Shown piece after piece: positions 43,051 through 64,000 of a stretch of DNA of 64,000 nucleotides (its first letter is position 1; the number at the start of each line of letters is the position of its first letter). Source of the DNA: Arctopsyche grandis (lineage: Eukaryota > Arthropoda > Insecta > Trichoptera > Hydropsychidae); NCBI RefSeq assembly GCF_051622035.1, contig NC_135359.1:26558501-26622500 (forward strand), in the 5' to 3' direction. The notes under the pieces are model-generated. The model was not told the DNA's origin and did no database searches. It saw nothing but the letters and a program-made list of their open reading frames with translations. The position numbers were made by a program, and so were the translations under genes.

Positions 43051-43808
43051 AGCGGCAACTAGGAATTGCAATACTGATATATCGGTATGCCGGTTTACCG
43101 GTAAATAGACAAAATTTCACCGTCGGTAAATACCGGTAAAGAGAAAAAAAATCGTCATCGATAAATACCGGTAAATTAAAAAATACCGGTATTAAGTACA
43201 CATACAGGCATATTAACATTACATTAAAAATCCATGCAAATGGCGTATTGTGGATTAGTTTGTTTGGAATTTGTTTATTTTCGGTATCAAATGTGGCAAT
43301 TTCAAATTGATAAATTAATTGGCAGCACAGACCAATCAAATCGTAATAAATGCAATCAAATGGTTGTTTCAATTATGATCGAACCTAAAAATGGTCCAAA
43401 CTTATAATGTATATGACTGGTTAAAAAAAAAAAAAAATAACACTTATTTATTATTACTAGAGGTAGGATAGTCACAGTGCTATCCATTGTTCGGCAAACC
43501 GTTAACAATGCATTTACAACCTTTGAACAATACACGGCCCCCTCAGGCTCCGGTGACTAATTATTACGAATTTACTTTCAAATATTATATATGACATTTT
43601 TTACCTGAGATTTAATTTTAATTATTTACTTTTCAATCTAGGTTAACGTTTGAAGAAAAGTAACCACATATCTACAGCTATCTAATCTAATCCACGAAAG
43701 ATTTTTATTTTTTTCATTTACCGATGAATATGGGTATACCGGTAGTAGGAAAAATCATTTACCGTTTACCAGTTTATGAAATTTGACGGTAAATTGCAAT
43801 CCATAGTG
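43051..43808. mobile_element. ACCGGT-rich element with TTGCAAT ends
   Basis: It runs from GGAATTGCAATACTG to ATTGCAATCCATAG, with many TACCGGTAAA palindromes near both ends. The start matches in inverse the fragment at 8900-9047. It contains a degenerate copy of the TAGAGGTAGGATA MITE. Confidence 0.5.
43457..43560. mobile_element. Degenerate copy of the TAGAGGTAGGATA MITE
   Basis: The left half TAGAGGTAGGATAGTCA plus AACAATGCATTTACAAC matches the intact palindrome at 63791-63923. The right end is decayed. Confidence 0.5.
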
Positions 43809-44659
43809 GTAACAGTCAAAAGCTATCTTCAAATGGAATCAAGCGGTGAAGCTTAAACCTTTTAGCTGTCAAAACTTTCGAGCTGTCAAAACCTTTGAAG
43901 ATGTCAAAACGCATTACAACATCGCTTATTTTAAAAATTTTGCAACCCAGGATAAGGATGCATACGTAGAGGATGAGACAAACTATTGAGAATACTTAAA
44001 CGTATGCCTATAGTCGATCCGATGCGAGAACCGAGCATGCTGTTACAATCGTGCAATTTCTTGTAGCATTGAAAGAACGCAAAATAATTTATTTATTTCT
44101 AATTTAACTATATAATATTATTACAGTATAATTCGTTGCAAAGTCTTTGATAATATTACTGTAAGTTTTGCTGTCCATAACATGATGTTGAAAATTACTT
44201 TTACCGTTTAAAAAATTTAAATTTCCATTAATATAAAATATATACACACATATTCCGTGAATAATTTAATAATATCAACAACCTATGTATTTTATATTAA
44301 AATTTTAATAATTTAAATATTTAAAAATGCGAAACACGAACTCAAAACTAACAAAAAATAAAAGTCATCGATTCTACCTACCGCTATATGTACGTAAAAT
44401 GATGTATTTCTTAACCAAAATGCAATACGAAACTGAAACGAAATGTAATTGGCCATCGCGGGTCGAGTGGGGGGTGAATGCAACAGAATGTACATCATAT
44501 GTAAGTCTCAAGTTTGTCCACAAACATACTAGTTCGTTTGTCAATATGTTCTCTTGTGTAAACTATAACTGACTCGAATGGTTCCTGCATGAACAAACTA
44601 GTATGCTCATGAACGAACGAAATGTACACTTGGACTGTAACATACATACATACATATAT

Positions 44660-45419
44660 CAGCAGCGTCACTAGACCCGTGCGGGGAGTGCTGTCTGCAC
44701 CATTGCCATTGTGACACCATTTTTGGGGTGACACCAAATTGTTCAAATTGAAAAACGCAAATTTGACATATTCGTTCTATGAAAGTCCTCACCTCATTTA
44801 AATTTCTGTATATATACAGCTTTCTGTATATATATGTATATACAGATTTCTGTATTGATATACATAGCTTTCTGTATTTATACAGCTTTCTGTATTTATA
44901 CAGCTTTCTGTATTTATACAGCTTTCTGTATTTATACAGCTTTCTGTATTTATACAGCTTTCTGTATTTATACAGCTTTCTGTATTTATACAGCTTTCTG
45001 TATTTATACAGCTTTCTGTATTTATACAGCTTTCTGTATTTATACAGCTTTCTGTATTTATACAGCTTTCTGTATTTATACAGCTTTCTGTATTTATACA
45101 GCTTTCTGTATTTATACAGCTTTCTGTATTTATACAGCTTTCTGTATTTATACAGCTACCGTGAAATCCATCTGGTGCAGTTATATACATATGTATATAC
45201 ATATATTTTGTAATATAAGCCATATTGGATTTTGTTTGAATTCCTGAGAGATCAGTGAATGTATCTAAAGGTAAGAAGGTTAACCGATTCAGTCAGACGG
45301 AGATGCAATGCAGAAACAACGCGCGAACTTCCAATTAACAAATATTAATAATTAATAAAAAATATTTTTTAGGGAACACCACCACGCAACAGGTGACACC
45401 ACCCCTAGCGACGCCACTG
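44660..45419. mobile_element. hAT-like element carrying a minisatellite
   Basis: The ends CAGCAGCGTCACTAG and CTAGCGACGCCACTG are imperfect inverse repeats, with GTGACACC and GGTGACACC motifs inside. I do not see an exact 8-bp target duplication. The centre is occupied by the 18-bp minisatellite. Confidence 0.55.
44868..45160. repeat. 18-bp minisatellite, about 16 near-perfect units
   Basis: The unit TTTCTGTATTTATACAGC repeats head to tail with almost no variation. Each unit contains CTGTA-TTTA-TACAG, a 5-bp-stem hairpin. Since 18 is a multiple of three and the unit has a stop in only one frame, five frames stay open. The long SFLYLY, FCIYTA and SCINTE ORFs are artefacts. Confidence 0.95.
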
Positions 45420-46203: not shown

Positions 46204-47352
46204 ATAGTATAATATTATAATGTAATGCATCAGTTAAACAAATCAAACACACAGCGGTCTTCATTTGACTATGAAAAAATACTCGTCAGTGTTTGTAGTT
46301 CGAAATAAATAATAAAAAAACAAACACAATAGAACAATTGCACTTATTTTTTTCGCTATTATTCTTTGTAGCGGAAAAAATAGTTGGTCATAATAAGGCT
46401 TTTCTGACGCAGGTTGAATTCGACCGTGAAGTAAATATAATACATATGCCACTCGTCGACCATGAAAAAGGGTCTCTCGAGCGATATGTTTCAATCTAAT
46501 TTTTAATAGCGTACGGCTTGCTAGATACAAATAGATAGAGCAAAAAAAGTATATATTATATATGTATGTATGTATATATTTATTTGCGCACTATATCGTA
46601 TCTAAATATAAGTCGGGCAAAAAAGCTATCGTGATTGCGAATCGAGCAGCTTTGTTCTGGCCGGCCAATGGCGGTCTTTATAAACAAATCGGCGATAAAT
46701 AAAACCTGTCCGTGTTCTTATGAATTTGAGCAGCGGCTGTATGGCTGCGGTTCAACAGTGAATGTAGAATGTAGTCGACCTTGGTCCAGCCAGCTCCACT
46801 CAGCCACGTCTGTATGGTCTCTCTTGGCTCATTCGCACTCTACCTGACACTGCAGCAAAAAATAAAACTCAATTGAAAAAAAAAAAATAATATGTTGTAG
46901 GTATACCTTTATATAATTTGCCCGACGTGATTTTCACCCGAAAACCGGTGAAGGCTCTCAGAGTGGCGCGTTATGGTGTCCAAAACTCTTGCTAGGGTGA
47001 TGACATCATGCCGAGGGGCAAAGCTTCTAGCATTTAATTCAACTCATTGAATTTTTTATAGTCTCAAAGATTAAGATGATTTATTCGAAAAATAATTTCG
47101 TATGGTTTTTTATTATTTCGTATGGTACTTTTTTATCTCCTCGTATTTATTTACCTCTCAGGTACTTATATATTCTTGCTGATCGCTTTAAGAACAGAAG
47201 TGAAATTTGCCACATTCTTTCAATATTCAGTAGTCAACCTTTGAAGGACGGAGTGTCGAGATCGAACGAGTGTCCCGAACCGGGGTCGCGTAAGACCCCA
47301 GTATTTTTTAATCAAAATACAACTTTTCTCAATACAAATGGGTTCAATATAT
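46204..47352. other. Intergenic stretch, nothing recognised
   Basis: The segment 46615-46850 is GC-richer with a 70-codon ORF without recognisable features. Confidence 0.4.
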
Positions 47353-47737
47353 TGTTACGTAGGGGTGGGTGGAGGATCCAAGTAAAAGGCCAACAGTCGT
47401 TTCACAGCATTTATTGATGATTAAGGAGATACACGCACTGTCACTGCTCAGTCCAGAATGACATGATATCGCCTACGTACCGCCTTATAAAGGGTAGATC
47501 TCTCAGGACGCCTAATATGTTTACCTGTTGTATAGTCACGTATTCGGATATGTATTTCCTAGACATTGGGTCTCCCCGTACCGATTCTGAGAAATAACTA
47601 ATAACGGTCATTGTTTAGCCTAAATGCACTTAGAGTCCAGATATAATCCTTGGAAGTAAGTGCAAGCACTTAGTTAATCCGATAACAGATATCCGTTGAT
47701 CTGATTGCAATTCGCTCAATCCGCGGCGTACGTAACA
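47353..47737 (+). mobile_element. Solo LTR, Ty3/gypsy-like, copy 1
   Basis: The sequence runs from TGTTACGTAG to GTACGTAACA, a TG...CA LTR with matching short inverted ends. TTATAAAGG near 47484 could be its TATA box, implying plus orientation. Flanks are ATAT and TTAT, a 4-bp duplication with one change. A second copy is at 63054-63446. No internal retroviral-type coding region is next to either. Confidence 0.75.
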
Positions 47738-60504: not shown

Positions 60505-62307
60505 TATATAAAACACTTGACAATTTTTTTAAATTGTGAAATACCTATTTTATGAGATAAACATTTAATTATTAAAAACTATGGTAAGAATTGATTTTTA
60601 ATTTAAAATATGAATGATCACAATATGTTCAGTATATTAAAATACACCAATATACAAACCAATTATACTATATTATACCAATATTTGAATTGAAAAGAAA
60701 TTTCACGCCGGTAGAATGGAGCGCACTGGAATTCCATATATGCGGGGTATAACATTATTTTATGTATCTGATTTATTTTATGCGTTTTGTTATATTTTTG
60801 GAAGACTGATCCATTTTAAATTTCATTTCGATATCTGAAAAGAATTACTAATAAAGTATAACTTCTGATGCAATCTGTAGTTGTATACGTATATAATTCC
60901 CAAGCCTTTCATATTCCATCCTAGCTATTATAAAATATGTTTCTTCATATATATAAAGTAATTGAGGACAGATTTTCAACAAAAGGAAGGTATATTTTAC
61001 CAGCCCAGCTTATATGATTAAACATATCTTAATGTATGTATGTATGTATACATATCTCTTGGAACTAACATTTTTTTGTACATGTTATTCTGACCAATTA
61101 AAAAACGATTAAATTTAAATATATTTTTATTATACAATTGATGACCACAATAATTGCATTATTGATATTAAGTATTTGTATTTACAGAAGAAATTAAGTA
61201 CATAAATCATAAAAAATATATTTTTTAATTTTATTTAAGTAACAATACAGGATTGTTGTAAATTTAGTACGAAATGATTACAAGACAAATGACCAGACAG
61301 CTGAATATATTGTCTTGAAAAAATTGGTTAATAAAAAATATTTAAACGCTAAAGGGTTATACCAAATATGAGCTAAACATGTTTATTCAAAAATATAAGG
61401 CAGAGGGGATTCTATAGTAATATTTTCGTATTAGTAGATCTACAGCAATAAACGCTATGTTAATGAATGACTCCAAATTCATCCAGACTTTATTTGCTAT
61501 CCCCATCTTAAATATTTGTTAACAATTCCTTATGTGCTTAAAATCTATTAAAAACAACTTATGGTACTACATATTACATATAATCATAAATATATATAAA
61601 TATCATAAAACTTTCTTTGGGTTTTAGCGTTTTTATTATTTACAAAACAAAATATTTCTAATGCCTTATATATGTATGTATTGAATTTTTATTCATCTAT
61701 ATTACAAAAGCTACAAATTTTTATTCAATTTTTTCATTTAATTCAGTAATAAATATTATATATTTGACTCATCATTAAATAAAAAAAAAATCAGATCATT
61801 TTAACAAGATAATTTTATAGTTTTGCCTGAGATTTGATTTCGTGTAAACATTTATTTCATTTATTTATTATAAAATTAATACTAATAATAGAAGTCATTA
61901 AAATACAACAGTTTATAATAAGAAAATAGTGTTTTAAGAATATTTAAGTAAACATAAATATTTATTAATAAATTAATAAAGTTGTGTTTATATAACAATA
62001 AATTTGTGGTCTACTGAATACATTGACTAAAATGGTTGATATATTTTGTGTTATAATTTAACATTAGCAATATATATGTATATGTAAGCATAATTATCAC
62101 ATTTAACATTACAGCATAATATTATAGAATTAAATCAATATCATATGTCAATATTCCAATTCAAATAGAACTGTGTACATATAGACAGATACAATCCAAC
62201 TCGGCAGACCACCTAATGCAACAGTACGCAGTATCTAGTCAATATTTATACAATTACATACATTTGTACTGAATAAATGAAGCAGTGTCAATATAAAAAA
62301 GCTAATT
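60505..62307. other. Very AT-rich intergenic sequence
   Basis: No gene. The last few hundred bases must include the 3'UTR of the minus-strand tetraspanin gene. Confidence 0.45.
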
Positions 62308-62559
62308 TTAAAATCCCATATCGCTTATGGTGGTGATACTAATATTGTTATCGACTTGGTGCTGTTTACGGTGAGATCTTCTCTTCTTCGAATGTACGGG
62401 ACACGGGGCTCGTCCCGCAATGCCGAATGCATTCCCCCTGGAGATCTTTCCGTTTCTGAAGTCGCCCATGTGCTCGGTGGACTTGTCGAACACTTTAGAC
62501 TTGGAAGAGTTGGTCGCCTTCCTCGGATTGTTTGCTAACGGAGTAGCTTTGGGTAAAGG
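62308..62559 (-). CDS. Candidate readthrough extension of the tetraspanin (83 codons)
   Basis: Immediately after the tetraspanin TGA the same frame is open for 83 codons to TAA at 62308-62310. It begins PLPKATPLANNPRKATNSSK and includes EHMGDFRNGK, a basic patch SKKRRSHRKQH and the end ITTISDMGF. By my count about 48 of 83 third positions are G or C in an AT-rich region, and this composition falls away right after the TAA. The stop context is TGAC, the class most often read through in insects. The alternative is an exon joined by a splice I did not find, or a chance open frame. Confidence 0.5.
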   Translation of the reverse strand, partial: PLPKATPLANNPRKATNSSKSKVFDKSTEHMGDFRNGKISRGNAFGIAGRAPCPVHSKKRRSHRKQHQVDNNISITTISDMGF

Positions 62560-62703
62560 TCAGTCGAGAATGTCCTTCAGTTTGACGTATATGCAACAAG
62601 AAACGACCATTCCGAAGATCGGTATGACGCTAATGCCCAAACCCACCGCTCCCAGTATGATAAGATGATCCCTGATGTGATTAGCCATCGGTCTTATACA
62701 ACC
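62560..62703 (-). CDS. Tetraspanin last exon
   Basis: The acceptor on the minus strand is TACTTTCAG before GGTTGTATA. It encodes GCIRPMANHIRDH, the fourth helix and the tail up to TGA. The frame continues open beyond the stop (see 62308-62559). Confidence 0.88.
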   Translation of the reverse strand, partial: GCIRPMANHIRDHLIILGAVGLGISVIPIFGMVVSCCIYVKLKDILD

Positions 62704-62931
62704 CTGAAAGTATTAAAAGTCATTTCAGTATGCATTTTTATATTTTGTTACAATGAAAGTGTATTTCTTGCATACTGTGTAATGAATGTTTGATGGGTGG
62801 TCTCTGATGCCGCACCGGGGAGTCACCGATTTGCAACATGAGTCAGGAACTAGTCTTTTCTCCCCGAGAGACACTCTCAACCAAGCACTAGCTTTCCAAT
62901 CTTCGTGTCGGACTGCTCCACAACATTTGAA
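62560..62931 (-). CDS. CD151/TSPAN11-type tetraspanin, C-terminal two exons (partial gene)
   Basis: Exons 62931-62776 and 62703-62560 (minus) join in phase 0 to 99 codons plus stop. The first exon begins FKCCGAVRHEDWKASAW and contains VPDSCCKSVTPRCGIRDHPS, giving the large extracellular loop. With GC of the next exon there are six loop cysteines (CCG, CC, C, C), the CD151/TSPAN4/9/11 pattern. The second exon has the fourth membrane helix (HLIILGAVGLGISVIPIFGM) and the short tail YVKLKDILD before TGA at 62562-62560. Tetraspanins organise membrane partners such as integrins. Exons for the first three helices are not seen up to 64000. Confidence 0.85.
62776..62931 (-). CDS. Tetraspanin penultimate exon, large extracellular loop
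   Basis: The acceptor on the minus strand is AATGTTTCAG before TTCAAATGT, the donor ACA then GTATGC. Length is 156 bases (52 codons, phase 0 to 0). It carries the CCG hallmark and PDSCC. The 5' exon it joins is not identified. Confidence 0.88.
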
Positions 62932-63053
62932 CTGAAACATTAAAAATACAACTGAATATAAAGCTACTTCCAATATGCACGTACTATTATATACACAATC
63001 TGCTTTAGATCGTCGACTTTGGAGAGTCTTTAGTTAATATATTATAATAATAT

Positions 63054-63446
63054 TGTTGCGTAGAGGTGGGTGGAGGATCCAAGTAAAAGGCCAAAGTCGT
63101 TTCACAGCATTTATTGATGATTAAGGAGATACACGCACTGGCAGTGCTCAGTCCAGAATGACATGATATCGCCTACGTACCGCCTTATAAAGGGTAGATC
63201 TCTCAGGACGTCTTATCTGTTTACCTATTGTATAGTCACGTATTCGGATGTCTTCCCACGGTATGGGTCAGTCGTTCTGAGAAGTGCAATCACTGTTTAG
63301 ATTACTTGCACTTAGCCTGTCGCTAATCCTTGAAACCACTTATACCGGTCGCACGGTATGCACTTAGTTAATCCGTTAACAGATAATCCTTGAACGGTCA
63401 CACAGTCTCTGGGATTCTATTCGCTTAATCCGCGGTGTACGTAACA
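63054..63446 (+). mobile_element. Solo LTR, copy 2
   Basis: TGTTGCGTAG to GTACGTAACA, flanked by ATAT on both sides. It is clearly the same family as 47353-47737: identical over most of the first 200 bases, more diverged afterwards. It lies about 120 bases upstream of the tetraspanin loop exon, probably in an intron of that gene. Confidence 0.8.
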
Positions 63447-63767: not shown

Positions 63768-63790
63768 TTATGTATAAGATGTATTATGAG

Positions 63791-63923
63791 TAGAGGTAGG
63801 ATAACCAAGGTGCCGTTTATTGTTAAAATGTTGTAAATGCATTGTTAAAGGTTTGCCGAACCTTTTTTACAAAGCATTTACAACAATTGAACAATAAGCG
63901 GCACCTTGGCTATCCTACCTCTA
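63791..63923. mobile_element. 133-bp hAT MITE, near-perfect palindrome
   Basis: It starts TAGAGGTAGGATAACCAAGG and ends with the inverse. ATTATGAG is on both sides (63783-63790 and 63924-63931). TAGAG fits the hAT terminal consensus. A decayed copy is at 43457-43560. Confidence 0.9.
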
Positions 63924-64000
63924 ATTATGAGCATTTATAAGAATTGTGAATAGGTTTTTGAATTATTTTTCCTATTATGCTGTCCATTAAAATTATAATA

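Follow-up and report, generated by a model that had tools for sequence, protein, structure and literature searches.

Candidate UGA-C stop codon readthrough in a predicted CD151-like tetraspanin of Arctopsyche grandis

Described readthrough genes and related tetraspanins

Abundant stop codon readthrough is reported for every Drosophila and Anopheles species tested, for the majority of the other insects tested and for one crustacean; Tribolium and Apis failed the test for abundant readthrough and, within the part of the study consulted here, no species outside Pancrustacea passed it (PMC5100048). The same part of that study estimates that functional readthrough occurs at 5-6% of the stop codons of A. 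gambiae and D. melanogaster and describes large introns as common in readthrough genes. In the available portion of the ribosome profiling study of Dunn et al., the median readthrough rate is 5.2% where the extension is conserved and 1.7% where it is novel, and UGA is found at only 25% of the readthrough events (PMC3840789), so that UGA is not required for readthrough. The extensions reported by FlyBase curators are mostly 8-300 residues long, and many of the longer ones have disorder-like features, according to the excerpt of PMC4528330 used here.

The locus described here lies near one end of a window of 64,000 nucleotides, that is, the whole stretch of DNA that was analysed (contig NC_135359.1, positions 26,558,501 to 26,622,500, of the A. 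grandis assembly GCF_051622035.1). It resembles the readthrough genes of insects and the crustacean, as described in the consulted parts of PMC5100048 and PMC3840789, in its single in-frame TGA-C stop, a coding-like second frame and a large intron, and the 83 residues of its extension fall within the usual range of 8-300 (PMC4528330, excerpt). Unlike the known cases, which were recognized by conservation among multiple species or by ribosome footprints, the present one comes from the sequence of a single genome.

Among tetraspanins, Drosophila Tetraspanin 86D (Tsp86D) is a readthrough candidate (PMC5100048, in part) and is like the present gene in being a tetraspanin whose stop has this status; the extension of Tsp86D, however, carries a predicted peroxisomal signal, whereas the C-terminus of the present tail, DMGF, shows no such signal by eye. 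In vertebrate CD151, a sorting motif of the YXX-hydrophobic type, YRSL, follows TM4 (PMC3981038, in part), and the present protein has YVKL after TM4. A full-text literature search of main texts for readthrough with tetraspanin, Tsp74F and CD151 found no published readthrough in a CD151-like tetraspanin, and the publications that pair readthrough with CD151 concern, in the portions available, other matters. We take the subfamily of Tsp86D to be TspanC8, which is other than that of the present CD151-like gene. To our knowledge, little work has been done on single readthrough cases beyond flies and mosquitoes or on those in membrane scaffolds. If real, the present case would join the hundreds of readthrough genes of flies and mosquitoes, Tsp86D included; if confirmed, it would be a second readthrough tetraspanin and would make an isoform of a protein that organises receptors available for testing; if the extension is a product of chance, nothing changes.

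The tetraspanin gene, its stop codon and possible routes past it

Both the tetraspanin gene and the extension are on the minus strand, a detail absent from the first-pass annotation, with the following features in window coordinates.

62776..62931, minus strand: penultimate coding exon, encoding a portion of the large extracellular loop (FKCCG...VPDSCCKSVTPRCG...SNIHYT) and in phase 0 at its two ends
62560..62703, minus strand: last coding exon to the first stop inclusive, with the final loop cysteine, TM4, the tail IYVKLKDILD and TGA at 62562-62560
62559..62562, minus strand: four-base termination context TGA-C, read from the sequence
62308..62559, minus strand: in-frame extension, predicted readthrough tail, with 83 codons (62559-62311) and TAA (62310-62308)
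61961..61966, minus strand: first AATAAA or ATTAAA downstream, an AATAAA 594 nt past the TGA and beyond the TAA

A search with the penultimate exon alone identifies the Pfam tetraspanin model PF00335 with an E value of 3.7e-6, and the last exon alone does so with 2e-5; joined, the two exons reach 7.2e-17 and 62.2 bits against a cut-off of 32.1. The last exon begins at 62703 behind a CAG acceptor in phase 0, and the score of this acceptor, 11, is the joint best among those listed; the donor of the penultimate exon is inferred to be ACA/GTATGC, with a consensus score of only 5 out of 9, so that the scale of splice scores is coarse. While the exons with CCG and with TM4 lie inside the window, the next exon found, which encodes the end of TM1 and TM2 (C5:26644831-26645127, 40.1 bits), is located about 23 kb upstream, across a large intron. 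No exon was found for TM3 or for the first part of TM1; in the case of TM3, motif scans, a hydrophobicity scan and an HMM built on six TM3 segments yielded nothing convincing, the best HMM match (E 0.15) falling outside the interval. Part of the intron reads N, so the missing TM3 exon is no sign of a broken gene. In tblastn searches with two human queries, CD151 is the better of the two (E 2e-26 vs 3e-15 for CD63), which is a point of likeness to vertebrate CD151/TSPAN11; in contrast, the best sequence match among solved structures is CD63 (E 1.6e-10), with no CD151 chain among the matches listed. The gene product is predicted to be a CD151-like tetraspanin.

The strongest readthrough context has CUA after the stop codon, and here the stop is followed by CCU. 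The first-pass annotation gave the context as GAC-TGA-CCT, and the minus strand reads exactly so, with C at +4, that is, a leaky context; its further statement that UGA-C is enriched agrees with the over-representation of TGA, and of C after TGA, among readthrough candidates in the consulted part of PMC5100048. Unlike the known insect and crustacean cases, the present one lacks CAGCAGCA, which the partly available sources describe as enriched in fly and mosquito readthrough cases, and it lacks a downstream hairpin, three overlapping folds after the stop being no better than shuffles (z 0.35, 0.01 and 0.38); among the candidates of flies and mosquitoes, however, no more than about 9-10% have a predicted structure (PMC5100048, in part).

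The normal tail, annotated as about ten residues, is IYVKLKDILD, precisely ten residues past the CC of TM4, and is followed by TGA CCT. Human CD151 has the same number of residues, ten, past its CC. Counted from the last residue aligned to solved tetraspanins, nine residues are left here, compared with 11 for CD9 and 13 for TSPAN7, although the chains of these structures may carry tags. These comparisons make it most likely that the TGA is an ancestral stop; given its position near the family's usual end, the extension would be an addition and not the remnant of a newly truncated protein. If instead the long tail were ancestral and the TGA new in this genome, through a nonsense mutation of recent date, an allele or an error of the assembly, the extension would also be intact and coding-like, as expected soon after such a change; false positives of this type are subtracted by Jungreis et al. 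in their single-genome test (PMC5100048, in part). The TGA, however, stands about where other tetraspanins end and so is unlikely to be new, which makes this explanation improbable.

Another route past the stop is alternative splicing from a donor before the TGA to an acceptor inside the extension, in frame, with the TGA bypassed. Acceptor-like sites at 62499 and 62361 preserve the frame of the extension and, with the phase-0 donors available (that of the previous exon and two weak sites within the last exon, 62646, GCG/GTGGGT, and 62607, ATG/GTCGTT), would give in-frame products, the phases having been worked out by hand. These acceptors, however, score 7 and 9 vs 11 for the true one, the weak donors score 6 and 5 out of 9, each product loses TM4 wholly or partly, and the first 30 codons of the extension are also coding-like, so that a splicing explanation appears quite improbable.

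Three further explanations are, taken together, very improbable: the UGA could be decoded as selenocysteine, it could be converted to UGG by A-to-I editing, or a separate frame could be translated from an internal ATG. UGA is the selenocysteine codon, but there is no Rfam match up to E 5 within 61500-63000 and hence no SECIS element is seen there. ADAR disfavours a 5' G, and the edited A would here follow G, so editing to UGG is unlikely. An in-frame ATG, the first in the extension, is present at 62469 and could start a separate frame; the synonymous-codon signal described below, however, is found upstream of this ATG (+0.078) as well as after it (+0.092).

Length, composition and codon choice of the extension

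After the TGA, the frame stays open in frame 0 for the claimed 83 codons, to the TAA; the first AATAAA lies beyond this TAA, and thus the mRNA should include the whole extension. The first-pass annotation put the probability of 83 open codons at about 0.02; calculated from the frequency of stop triplets, the corresponding values are 0.026 for the GC-matched local background and 0.0056 for all local background, but when the extension itself is shuffled with its dinucleotides preserved, 769 of 20,000 shuffles (3.8%) are open as far, so that, once the GC content of the extension is granted, the length of the frame alone is not strong evidence. The third-position GC of roughly 58% is borne out by a measured value of 57-58%. 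Overall GC is 48.4% in the extension vs 26.6% in the 252 nt after the TAA. The drop in composition said to occur exactly after the second stop is found near the TAA, with the best change point at 62314, four bases before it, but the 2-lnL interval of 62146-62357 does not warrant 'exactly'; over the first 128 nt past the TAA, GC is still 32%.

The main rival of readthrough is chance: the proximal 3' UTR would simply be GC-richer than its surroundings and would contain one open frame in phase with the stop, with no protein made from it. This explanation is regarded as possible rather than probable. A GC-richer 3' UTR would produce long frames on both strands, and several other frames are indeed open in the same stretch, namely 62281-62538 (85 aa) and 62375-62668 (97 aa) on the plus strand and 62325-62534 (69 aa) on the minus strand; the fraction of open shuffles and the lack of a hairpin point the same way. 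Against chance, open antisense frames are common opposite real coding sequence, and GC falls near the second stop.

Codon choice was assessed with a synonymous-codon score, for which 31 exon pieces of kinases and tetraspanins from this genome (18.1 kb) served as the training set. The kinase training loci are all 19 that lie on the large contigs C1-C13 among 30 listed, the other 11 being on small, possibly contaminant contigs. The tetraspanin training loci are 12 of 30 listed: 15 were left out for internal stops, including L014 of the target, and so were L033, which is on a small contig, and L034 and L038, which are weak matches, although the equally weak L036 was kept; one of the training exons, L024, is part of the target's own gene.

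The synonymous-codon score of the extension is +0.087 bits per codon, a value that 31 of 59 coding pieces do not exceed, and the sense frame is the best of six. By comparison, only 1 of 511 GC-matched background windows and 0 of 23 open ones score as high or higher, these windows being unannotated so that some coding sequence may be included; the same holds for 312 of 20,000 shuffles. This exon-like synonymous codon choice, above 510 of the 511 background windows, argues against chance. When the GC3-rich training exons are removed, the sense frame is still the best (0.063). Against a null that keeps the amino acids and draws codons from the base composition of the extension, the codon score gives a p value of 0.054, which favours chance, and third-position GC a p value of 0.098.

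The full-codon score of the extension is 0.0, with 9 of 59 coding pieces at or below it and 26 of 511 background windows at or above it, and an antisense frame with one stop exceeds the sense frame on this score (0.107), another point in favour of chance. The known exon 62931-62776, however, scores -0.11, below the extension, which indicates that the full-codon test is weak on short stretches. An antisense gene was considered and rejected: the antisense frames are lower on synonymous codons, though this one is higher on full codons. The period-3 power of the extension is modestly above that of shuffles (p 0.03), which again speaks against chance; the p values are 0.006 for the last exon before the TGA, 0.67 for the penultimate exon and 0.87 for the 252 nt past the TAA. 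Thus, the coding signal of the extension is moderate and depends on the null chosen.

The extension is single-copy, with one match in the whole genome and no repeat; an origin from a transposon or other repeat was rejected for lack of a second copy. Pattern searches for relatives in collections of viral contigs (0 of 4 matches confirmed for the tail and stop region, 0 of 5 for the two exons) and in genome contigs of viruses and prokaryotes (0 of 23 for the exons with the tail and stop region) are uninformative on insects.

The predicted extended isoform and other observations

The reading of the locus as readthrough is partly supported: the position of the stop, C at +4, synonymous codon choice, the absence of a visible SECIS element, the weakness of the bypass sites and the single copy are in its favour, whereas the moderate coding signal and the lack of RNA structure are not. 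Low-level UGA-C readthrough leading to a minor, C-terminally extended isoform is considered the best single explanation, and a moderately probable one. What the sequence itself shows is the last two exons, the stop, the open frame and a synonymous codon choice that is coding-like; translation of the extension, its rate, its conservation and its role are predicted. Under this readthrough explanation, the main product would be a normal CD151-like tetraspanin ending at the UGA, and in a minority of ribosomes a near-cognate tRNA would decode UGA-C, adding 83 codons. The outcome would be a minor isoform with a long, basic and probably disordered cytosolic tail. That the tail is basic had been claimed from the outset and is evident from its composition (9 K and 7 R vs 4 D and 1 E); Pfam, NCBIfam and PDB contain no match for it. 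The tail would likely serve for extra cytosolic protein contacts or altered trafficking, beside the sorting-type motif YVKL, which would be retained in both the normal and the extended forms.

A bolder proposal, put forward tentatively, is that readthrough of the CD151-type tetraspanin is conserved and regulated in this lineage, the basic tail of the resulting isoform providing a second set of cytosolic contacts for the membrane scaffold, and that several of the genome's tetraspanins may behave alike. Tetraspanin ends were compared at 13 of 30 listed loci; in the 12 others, the second frames are 0-37 codons long, several of these 'ends' probably being introns, and two of the 12, L012 and L015, have TGA-C ends with a GC-rich in-frame continuation. 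L012 (C9:1918965-1919567, plus strand) is a tetraspanin-like 377-codon frame; its stop, TGA CTA, is in the strongest context known for readthrough, and the next 24 codons are open and have 68% GC. L015 (C3:30870520-30870789, plus strand) has the stop TGA CTG followed by 17 codons with 55% GC, in a frame that crosses a probable intron, so that its exact end is uncertain.

Several repeats were observed in the window. The tetraspanin intron contains a dispersed repeat at 63046-63249, pieces of which are 84-95% identical to 47346-47549 and are also present in L005 (which overlaps L024), L015 and L042. A MITE-like foldback element lies at 63791-63923 (within 63783-63931). Its inverted ends (TAGAGGTAGGATA...) are 34 nt or longer, and its target duplication, ATTATGAG, has 8 bp; partial copies are found at 43489-43538 and in L007 and L049. 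The region 44607-45292 is repetitive, and five of its frames are open over 98-182 codons owing only to the repeat.

Elsewhere in the genome, a full-length COI-like frame with 14 TGA codons is located at C1:36084296-36085831, inside a 42.7 Mb contig, and is either a mitochondrial copy newly inserted in nuclear DNA or the result of a misjoin; short COI-like pieces are numerous at other places. Read with the standard code, the COI-like matches reach 69% to Bombyx and 67% to Drosophila, in keeping with an arthropod but with no particular order. The small contigs C45-C175 (18-138 kb) carry 11 of the first 30 kinase-domain loci, and 10 of these 11 have no stop inside the match, a hint that the assembly includes contigs from a contaminant or a symbiont.
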